Shown: in pieces, positions 25,695-26,836 of the stretch
Position numbering within the stretch: position 1 is the first letter of the stretch
Layout of the letters: every line of letters begins with the position of its first letter
Source: Bacillota bacterium
Lineage (GTDB): Bacteria > Bacillota > Desulfotomaculia > Desulfotomaculales > Desulforudaceae
Assembly: GCA_040757205.1 (NCBI GenBank)
Contig: JBFLXL010000009.1
Span: forward strand, 1-64,000
DNA: 64,000 nucleotides
Direction of reading: 5' to 3'
The notes under the pieces: generated by a model
Database searches by the model: none
What the model was told of the DNA's origin: nothing
The model's input: the letters and a program-made list of their open reading frames with translations, nothing else
Translations under genes and position numbers: made by a program

Positions 25695-25718
25695 CTCTCA
25701 AAGTGAGGTATGGTTGAA

Positions 25719-26369
25719 ATGCGGAAAACGAAGCTTTTGGTGGTGGGCGTGCTGGTGGCGGGAGCAGTGGCGGCGGGTGGGGCCGCGGTGCACTGGCAGC
25801 AGGAGGCGGCCCTACCGGCCTACAACCAGGACAACTTGATCCGGATTCACATCGTGCCCCACAGCGACGATGAGGCCGACCAGGTTTTGAAGCATCGGGT
25901 GCGCCAAGCAGTGGTGGAAAATGTGCGTCCCCTCGTGTTCGGGGTGCATGACGCCCGGGAGGCCGGGCAGGTTATCGGTGACAGCCTGGTTATGATCCAA
26001 CAGGTCAGTCAGGCGGAAGTGGAAAAAGCCGGGAAGCACTATCCGGTTGAGGTAGGCTACGGCACCTTTGCATTCCCGACCAGGACCTATGGGAGCCTGA
26101 CCCTGGCCGCCGGTGATTACCAGGCCGTCCGGGTGACTCTTGGGTCCGGCGGCGGCGCCAACTGGTGGTGCGTGCTCTTCCCGCCGCTGTGCTTCGTGGA
26201 CGCGGAGCCCCAGGCGCTTGGGGCGGGCACCGCGGATGGCGTTCCCGCTGCCGGGTCCGGTCGGCTGCAGGTGAAGTTCAGGGCGGCCGAACTTTGGGAA
26301 AGGTCCGCGGCCATTGCGGCGAACCTGGCCGGACACTTAAACGGCAAAGACAAGGAGGAACGGATCTAG
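25719..26369 (+). CDS. spoIIR: Stage II sporulation protein R
   Basis: A 216-residue secreted signalling protein. A signal or anchor segment lies at about residues 4-25. The family motifs are LIRIHIVPHSDDEADQVLKHRVR, EVGYGTFAFPTRTYG, LAAGDYQAVRVTLG and NWWCVLFPPLCFVD. It is made in the forespore and crosses into the intermembrane space to activate SpoIIGA. ATG 25719 lies 10 bases after GAGG; ATG 25710 is too close to that site. Being behind sigG puts it under the sigma-F-type promoter, which fits its role. Confidence 0.93.
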   Translation: MRKTKLLVVGVLVAGAVAAGGAAVHWQQEAALPAYNQDNLIRIHIVPHSDDEADQVLKHRVRQAVVENVRPLVFGVHDAREAGQVIGDSLVMIQQVSQAEVEKAGKHYPVEVGYGTFAFPTRTYGSLTLAAGDYQAVRVTLGSGGGANWWCVLFPPLCFVDAEPQALGAGTADGVPAAGSGRLQVKFRAAELWERSAAIAANLAGHLNGKDKEERI

Positions 26370-26390
26370 GTAGTGGGCCGCAGCCAGGTC

Positions 26391-26511
26391 TGGGATGTGG
26401 GAAGTGGGAAGTTGGAGGTGGGATAAGGGGCCGGAAATCCGCATGCCGAATTCCTTTAAACCTCCCACTTCTCACTTCCCACTTCTCACTTCCCACCTCT
26501 CACCTCTCACC
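26391..26511. repeat. Heptad-repeat inverted structure before ylmC
   Basis: The left arm, 26391-26425, is five tandem 7-base units of TGGGAAG type. The right arm, 26463-26511, is seven tandem units alternating TCCCACT and TCTCACT, ending in TCTCACC. The right arm is the complement of the left, so the region can form a long imperfect hairpin with a loop of about 37 bases. It lies between spoIIR and ylmC and encodes nothing convincing. It looks like slippage-expanded repeat DNA, possibly acting as a terminator-like barrier. Confidence 0.7.
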
Positions 26512-26572
26512 CCGGGGCGGTTTTGGTTCTTCCGGAAGGTGCGGCGTACATATAATTAACGGGGTGATCCAG

Positions 26573-26836
26573 ATGCTGAAGGTGTCCGACCTCCGGATGC
26601 GTGAAATTGTGAATGTGATCGACGGCCGGCGCATGGGGTTGATCAAGGATATCGACATCGATCTCGACAACGGCCGGATCAGCGCGCTCATCCTGGCCGG
26701 CTCATCAAGGGTGCTCGGTTTTTTTGGGCGCGACGACGAAATCATGGTCCCTTGGGAAAAGATCGTTAAAATCGGAGTGGACGTAATTTTGGTAGAGGTG
26801 CCTGACTACGTTGAACGCTTTCCGGCGCGCAGATAG
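26573..26836 (+). CDS. ylmC: YlmC/YmxH family sporulation protein, PRC-barrel
   Basis: An 87-residue single PRC-barrel protein: MLKVSDLRMREIVNVIDGRRMG, then DIDIDLDNGRISALIL and VPWEKIVKIGVDVILVEV. In Bacillus ylmC lies just after sigG, as here. Its function is unknown; expression in sporulation has been reported for the family. The ATG follows GGGGTGATCC. A TATAAT at 26551-26556 lies 17 bases upstream of the start, but no good -35 accompanies it. Confidence 0.85.
   Translation: MLKVSDLRMREIVNVIDGRRMGLIKDIDIDLDNGRISALILAGSSRVLGFFGRDDEIMVPWEKIVKIGVDVILVEVPDYVERFPARR

Follow-up and report, generated by a model that had tools for sequence, protein, structure and literature searches.

What kind of element is the long array of seven-base units that separates spoIIR from ylmC in the window (the whole 64,000-nucleotide stretch of DNA analyzed here), and how could it have come to lie there? 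A sequence-only reading had described five G-rich units facing seven complementary C-rich ones, in a hairpin said not to be a typical terminator. The period-7 inverted structure is real; it occupies positions 26391–26514, with 5 G-rich heptads opposite 7–8 C-rich heptads, and the count of 5 G-type and 8 C-type units given by our unit caller departs from the five and seven claimed by a difference within the uncertainty at the edges. TRF delimits period-7 arrays at 26391–26423 (4.7 copies) and 26460–26511 (7.4 copies), and a period of 14 across 26463–26503 (96% matches). The arms are 85% complementary (26391–26423 against 26463–26495), other 7-nt registers also pair, and in the inverted-arm comparison the C-arm is an inexact copy of the G-arm. 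Folded as RNA, the segment 26365–26535 reaches −80.2 kcal/mol (z −4.75), a value equaled by 0 of 200 shuffles. The element has the inverted ends and long stem of a 23S rRNA intervening sequence (IVS), and also the inverted arms of tandem heptads that characterize the wider IVS-like family proposed below. Both neighbors had been named correctly, as their PF09551 and PRC-barrel matches bear out (Table 1), and relatives of the ylmC-like gene are present in 41 of the 41 genomes of the order, the window's own counted.

Table 1. Features of the spoIIR–ylmC hairpin, its surroundings and the elements compared with it
Feature	Location	Strand	Support or remark
spoIIR, stage II sporulation protein R, upstream neighbor	25710..26369	+	PF09551, E 4.6e-43
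G-rich heptad arm, 5 units	26391..26427	+	TRF, unit caller
14-mer GGAAGTTGGAGGTG in the G-arm	26407-26420	+	common to an arm of the RNase P RNA element L344
GGGGCCG	26427..26433	+	aligns with the terminator left strand of G001 and G002
Core, about 31 nt	26428..26458	.	between the arms
AAGGAATTCGGC in the core	26445-26456	minus-strand reading	common to the ORF-less 23S insert of G013 (L293)
C-rich heptad arm, 7–8 units (CACTTCT, CACTTCC, CACCTCT)	26459..26514	+	TRF, unit caller
Ancestral terminator right strand CGGGGCGG + TTTT	26513..26524	+	alignment with G001 and G002
ylmC/ymxH-like PRC-barrel gene, downstream neighbor	26573..26836	+	PF05239, E 2.8e-11
L344 RNase P RNA gene with PF05635-bearing insert of about 400 nt	G087:C1 ~403844-404161, 1229-2003	minus	RF00010
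Copies of the MITE-like repeat	G000 C4:94536, C7:55252, C8:82852, C8:89604, C2:75488, C12:6482, C16:19521, others

The hairpin is, as had been suspected, in itself no ordinary terminator; no consensus intrinsic terminator matches it, though the right strand of an old one and its TTTT persist. The description of a purine side facing a pyrimidine side holds as regards G-rich against C-rich, but the G-rich arm is not purely purine, T standing at the GTG and GTT positions. The triplex that had been envisaged is rejected, because H-DNA needs a mirror-symmetric pure purine tract, whereas the arms here have the symmetry of inverted repeats and the G-arm contains T. Rfam matched no family within 26200–26700. 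There is neither room for nor sign of an ORF encoding an intervening sequence protein (IVP) within the 121-nt element, over which the ORF caller places a spurious frame.

The same heptads recur well beyond this site. A search of the 2.03-Mb genome with CACTTCYCACTTCYCA, at most one mismatch being allowed, gave 23 matches and its backward control 0; a further heptad search gave 41 matches (backward controls 0 and 1), which by our own grouping represent 14 places, the window's hairpin and 13 others, among which GAAGTGA/GAGGTGA units are shared. At seven of these a called G-arm is followed by a C-arm 0–37 nt on, an eighth (C15) was recognized by eye and six are single arms. At the stringencies used, and with the window's genome counted in each case, heptads are found in 23 of 41 genomes of the order, where the backward control matched in one genome (G022, 5 matches), and in 17 of 299 genomes of the phylum, where it matched in three (G150, 4; G197, 58; G245, 4). 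Both arms with a spacer were found in at least 119 stretches of named genomes from several phyla, about one chance match being expected by our own arithmetic. To judge from the record titles, these phyla are presumably Bacillota, Bacteroidota, Desulfobacterota, Gemmatimonadota, Acidobacteriota, Verrucomicrobiota, Planctomycetota, Cyanobacteria, Pseudomonadota and others. An assembly error, the possibility of which had been raised, is unlikely because the same arms stand at many loci of independent genomes.

None of 128 non-redundant paired hairpins has the C-arm first, although 105 of them come from the named-genome scan, whose pattern demanded a leading G-arm, and only 23 were free to show either order. 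The latter were all G-first (23 to 0), some of them being orthologous or sharing a MITE-like host. Intergenic copies favor the 3′ ends of genes; of 78 that could be classified, 49 lie in tandem, 23 in convergent and 6 in divergent gaps, which make up 63, 14 and 23% of gap length, the gene context being that of a crude ORF caller by which 33 of the 128 hairpins overlapped an ORF call and 17 lay at edges. Rfam recognized no family in the six repeat loci tried. We also observed, in contig C24 of the window's genome (L130, 549–961), two tRNA-Arg genes (ARAGORN), each with GGAAGTGAGAGGCCGGAAGTGAG heptads a few bases 3′.

Whether heptads of this kind accompany genes for four-helix-bundle proteins was put to the test. 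The relevant domain is PF05635, the four-helix-bundle “23S rRNA intervening sequence protein”, and 59 loci that match it were fetched (30 of the 31 rows of one search and 29 new ones of the roughly 100 rows of another); 40 full-length classic loci were kept after 5 Avd, 10 partial, 2 near-identical and 2 short ones had been dropped. A period-7 array lies no more than 120 nt upstream of the domain match in 23 of the 40 and no more than 150 nt downstream of it in 20, while the control periods 4–6, 8–10 and 12 gave none and period 11 gave one before and two after. Heptad arms flank at least one side in 29 of the 40 loci and both sides in 14, compared with 7 and 0 at control positions 600 nt away, four of those 7 being 23S loci; in 22 the upstream and downstream arms are inverted copies of each other above the 99th percentile of swapped flanks. 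The heptad flavor tends to be specific to the locus. Against an IVS-like reading we count the 11 loci without an array at the threshold, and likewise the 2 of the at least 119 cross-phylum stretches that hold an IVP ORF, neither of which has period-7 flanks. Heptad arms were seen at none of the five PF05635 members classed as Avd by NCBIfam. Across the 41 genomes the co-occurrence of PF05635 and heptads is weak, the domain (Avd included) being found in 12 of the 23 genomes with heptads and in 6 of the 18 without. The window's draft genome yielded no classic IVP gene, its sole PF05635 match being an Avd. This Avd protein (G000 C3:22889-23191; NF033474, 113.6 bits) suggests a diversity-generating retroelement in that genome.

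The 23S motif of helix 45 is present in 7 of the 40 IVP loci (this helix number and that of helix 25 are ones we presume from position). Location within LSU rRNA was confirmed for L313 and for L298, one of the partial loci dropped, which comes from G002, a member of the window's genus, and whose ORF is broken by a stop. The IVS arms of L313 are composed of the window's heptads. A single genome, G037, has four 23S copies (L350, L359, L364 and L367) and three states of helix 45: one copy is without an insert, one has an IVS with GAGAAGTGAGAGGTG arms, of the window's kind, and two have GTAGTCA arms. At the helix-25 position, G037 and G013 carry a short heptad-armed, ORF-less insert with the core palindrome GAAGGAATTCGGCTAAAGCCGAATTCC or a variant of it, and G002 a shorter ORF-less insert with GGTCGTC units. 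In the window's genome, two of the dispersed elements without an ORF, E09 and E10, carry GAAGGAATTCGTTTTGCGAATTCCTTC at the equivalent place in their cores, and E11 carries a variant. The window's own core is degraded, but it holds the 12 nt that match the 23S insert L293 (Table 1), a match reached by 1 of 2000 shuffles. The shared core forms a bridge between rRNA inserts and dispersed hairpins, in this lineage only. Heptads or core are shared with an rRNA or IVP-bearing member in three instances: the arms of L313, the 14-mer of L344 and the 12-mer of L293. A 23S query found no match in the window's genome, which is a draft assembly.

Two further observations concern the cores and helix 45. 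GAATTC cores occur in 7 of 23 near-lineage elements and in 0 of 105 named-genome elements among the matches listed; such a core was considered as a universal mark and rejected, being confined to the near lineage. Among the matches listed, the named-genome cores have a median inner-hairpin z of −0.40, with 13 of 45 at −2 or below, which is little excess. In G012, which has more heptad matches than any other of the 41 genomes, a 108-nt ORF-less segment without clear heptads lies in 23S helix 45 (L348).

Ribosomal RNA is not the only structured RNA that harbors such elements. In RNase P RNA (294 bits), the IVP element of L344, which bears GGAAGTTGGAGGTGAGAGG arms, separates the two strands of the helix located after ACAGAAACAAACCGCC, a helix that we take to be P12. 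The 14-mer of the window's G-arm recurs in its arm and was found in 18 of 415 loci, mostly views of the window. In the same genus as G087, G159:C40:64178 gives a PF05635 match of equal span. Twenty of the 22 heptad-flanked IVP loci outside helix 45 were submitted to Rfam, and at 19 of these, all but L344, no RNA family was found; the family is therefore not confined to structured RNAs.

If the elements tend to lie at the tips of older hairpins, their outer flanks should pair. This is so at −25 kcal/mol or better for 12 of 125 elements, compared with a mean of 1.3 and a maximum of 5 for swapped flanks (200 rounds); shuffling of each element's own right flank gives a mean of 3.5 and a maximum of 8 (200 rounds), a weaker support than that of the swap null. 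With a cut of −20 kcal/mol there are 20 elements, against a mean of 12.0 and a maximum of 17 for own-flank shuffles, and from this small excess the hairpin-tip pattern therefore holds for a subset. The median flank pairing is −11.6, against −10.3 for swapped flanks, and the asymmetry of folding between strands has a mean signed difference of −2.0 kcal/mol over the 125 elements, whose strand is arbitrary, and was set aside as evidence. Heptad hairpins also stand in the loops of long REP-like palindromes of Rhodanobacter and Verrucomicrobiota (L214, L206, L216 and L280), with flank pairings among the strongest. At least some members are found at the tips of 23S helices, of RNase P RNA, of REP-like palindromes and of terminators.

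The congeners G001 and G002 permit individual sites to be compared with those of the window's genome (G000). Element E10 (C5:71670) is present in G000 and G001, and its place in G002 is taken by a plain hairpin of −24.1 kcal/mol; the G001 copy exceeds that of G000 by 14 nt, that is, by two heptads. The expectation that unit numbers vary between strains is borne out between species and at this other copy. G001 has an additional element directly 3′ of ylmC that is absent from G000, and J2 in G001 stands in place of DNA that forms an open frame in G000. The sites of E01, E05 and E08 differ across all the compared genomes, with no simple empty site visible. No clean target duplication was seen at the compared sites, which look replaced.

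The two-unit difference at E10 would also suit an origin in place, by slippage with a 7-nt polymerase preference and by hairpin template switching, in which case the likeness among loci would be convergence and the likeness to IVSs a matter of hairpins in general. The heptad flavors that vary among IVP loci agree with this, as does the statement, in passages of PMC4679880, that most of the surveyed genomes have heptanucleotide repeats as their commonest class. We nonetheless consider such an origin unlikely: identical GAAGTGA/GAGGTGA units stand at 14 places and in several phyla, core and linker sequences are shared between loci, elements are present or absent within conserved flanks, and the C-arm is no exact copy of the G-arm.

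At the window's own site, G002 has spoIIR, then the plain terminator CCGTCCCGGTTCGGGGCGGTTTTT, then ylmC, and G001 has a foreign repeat, a lone G-arm and an intact terminator; the terminator hairpins of G001 and G002 fold at −21.3 and −17.5 kcal/mol, respectively. The order in G000 is G-arm, GGGGCCG, core, C-arm, terminator right strand and TTTT, and the alignment of G002 with G000 therefore indicates that in the window the terminator's apical part has been displaced along with its left strand. By this alignment, the element appears to have supplanted the spoIIR terminator's loop and left strand, which form the tip of a hairpin older than the element and present in both congeners. The lone G-arm of G001, which permits more than one order of events here, counts against the IVS-like reading. 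At the window's site the ends of the local MITE-like repeat described below are absent, and no target duplication was seen. In another family, G018 has a heptad hairpin (L118) between a SpoIIR-like ORF (identified by eye) and ylmC.

The hairpin of G018 in the equivalent gap, the position between spoIIR and the downstream gene, and the retention of the old right strand and T-run might all be read as the mark of an elaborated terminator or mRNA 3′-end stabilizer, selected at this locus and devoid of a mobile history. This seems distinctly improbable, as opposed to it are the plain short hairpin that suffices in G002 and the same type of arm at unrelated loci, in rRNA and in RNase P RNA. A separate peculiarity of the neighborhood is that the ylmC-like gene of G001 (C27 ~63960-64060; L128) is without an internal piece present in G000 and G002, only residues 40–87 matching.

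What, then, is the element? In our judgement it is probably, though by no means assuredly, a heptad-armed hairpin without an ORF that belongs with the PF05635-encoding IVSs of 23S rRNA in one family but is situated outside rRNA. The plan of this family is a pair of inverted tandem-heptad arms that enclose an IVP gene in some members and a short inner hairpin in others. The sequence-only reading missed the dispersed cross-phylum family, as well as the replacement of the spoIIR terminator tip; its caveat that a known transposable repeat might be involved stands insofar as the element looks akin to a dispersed repeat and to rRNA IVSs, but no movement was observed. With 23S IVSs, which occur with or without an S23p/IVP ORF (PF05635, TIGR02436), it has in common the inverted heptad arms, the ORF-less and ORF-bearing forms, the hairpin-tip placement, the shared heptads of L313 and the shared core of L293. 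The differences are that the window's copy lies at an mRNA terminator outside rRNA and has no ORF, and that its excision by RNase III is only predicted; it is not a strict 23S IVS, because of its location outside rRNA. In passages of PMC4990558, IVSs are said to have been known for more than 25 years without a settled origin or protein role; that of Coxiella has heptameric repeats, in two or three sets depending on the strain, and in an IVS the tetraloop is replaced by an extended stem-loop that RNase III excises (PMC4990558). They are a mixed class, according to passages of PMC2672173: two code for transposases with copies elsewhere, and certain short ones are described there as lacking any copy or homologue outside.

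To the observed anatomy, dispersal, shared heptads and core, hairpin-tip sites, presence or absence among congeners and two-unit length difference, we would join a conditional mechanism. The transcript would form a long double strand, cleavable by RNase III as in IVSs; on that analogy, the transcribed hairpin of the window should be an RNase III substrate and should do little harm at a terminator. The hairpin would lengthen the terminator stem and might still end or protect the spoIIR mRNA, so that the insertion would be tolerated. The arms could lengthen and shorten through 7-nt slippage, and mobility may be supplied by an IVP-bearing member or by a host function. An IVP-bearing member is a possible helper, even if no classic IVP gene was found in the window's draft genome.

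A broader proposal, which we put forward tentatively and would not yet call probable, is that heptads of many flavors, rRNA IVSs and lone four-helix-bundle genes constitute a single class of bacterial mobile element that comes with or without an ORF, whose insertion target is the shape of a stable hairpin tip (in rRNA helices, RNase P RNA, terminators or palindromes), not a sequence, and of which the heptads of Xanthomonas, cyanobacteria and Beggiatoaceae are traces. If the rRNA inserts and the bacterial heptads, so far treated as separate puzzles, belong together, one could test what the four-helix-bundle protein does and how the element moves, dispersed heptads could be read as insertion marks at hairpin tips, and RNase III cleavage would be predicted for many non-ribosomal transcripts. 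The parts are known; in the literature searched, no title or abstract joined heptads to IVP genes and to hairpin tips. Among the cyanobacterial STRRs, one is reportedly located inside an RNase P RNA gene (so Vioque, in 1997). Like our elements, STRRs are usually 7-bp repeats, capable of forming hairpins and placed between genes; the passages of PMC2670836 from which this is taken make no IVS or IVP link, and the likeness drawn here is one of description. The GGGNATC heptads of Xanthomonas and Nostoc are dispersed and over-represented in non-coding regions, with inverted pairs numbering 70 in one Xanthomonas genome and 75 in another, but have other units and are discussed, in the relevant passages, as G-quadruplex formers (PMC4692102); the terms S23 and rRNA are absent from the text of that paper. 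The TAACTGA heptads of marine Beggiatoaceae are similarly dispersed in intergenic DNA, with a patchy cross-phylum distribution and no evident transfer mechanism, but as described in passages of PMC4679880 they are direct repeats, mostly just 5′ of starts, with one inverted case.

REP/BIME palindromes and MITEs resemble the heptad hairpins in being short, dispersed, intergenic palindromes. To our knowledge they have no period-7 arms, and the data do not support a dependence of the heptad hairpins on either a RAYT or the MITE-like repeat of this genome. A REP/BIME-like palindrome moved by an IS200-like RAYT transposase (Y1_Tnp) and unrelated to rRNA IVSs would also be short, intergenic and commoner at 3′ ends, and the corresponding PF01797 matches in 37 of the 41 genomes (the window's own counted); all four genomes without it (G008, G012, G021 and G038, of which G021 is 57% complete) nevertheless have heptads, and G012 has 46 matches, the maximum of the 41. 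The presence of heptads does not track PF01797 across the 41 genomes, a RAYT is not needed for their copying, and we regard this explanation as very improbable.

That the hairpin is a MITE of a DDE transposon is scarcely credible: three heptad hairpins of the window's genome do lie within copies of a palindromic repeat with CTAGGAGA ends (C4:94623, C7:55347 and, in part, C5:71670), and one site examined by eye has the plain form in G000 and the heptad form in G001, but 11 of the 14 places, the window's too, fall outside that repeat. Of the 415 loci fetched, 18 carry its end motif, and each of these comes from G000 or G001, so that heptad hairpins elsewhere do not depend on it. The MITE-like palindromic repeat of G000 (copies in Table 1) has the ends CTAGGAGAG..TTGCAAAA and an exchangeable interior, either a plain or a heptad hairpin; Rfam gave no match in the copies tried. 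A second dispersed palindrome of the same genome, CCCTGACCCTCTCCCTCTGGGAGAGGGTCAGGGTGAGGGG, occurs in at least 10 places besides C2:63732 (query 1149–1197).
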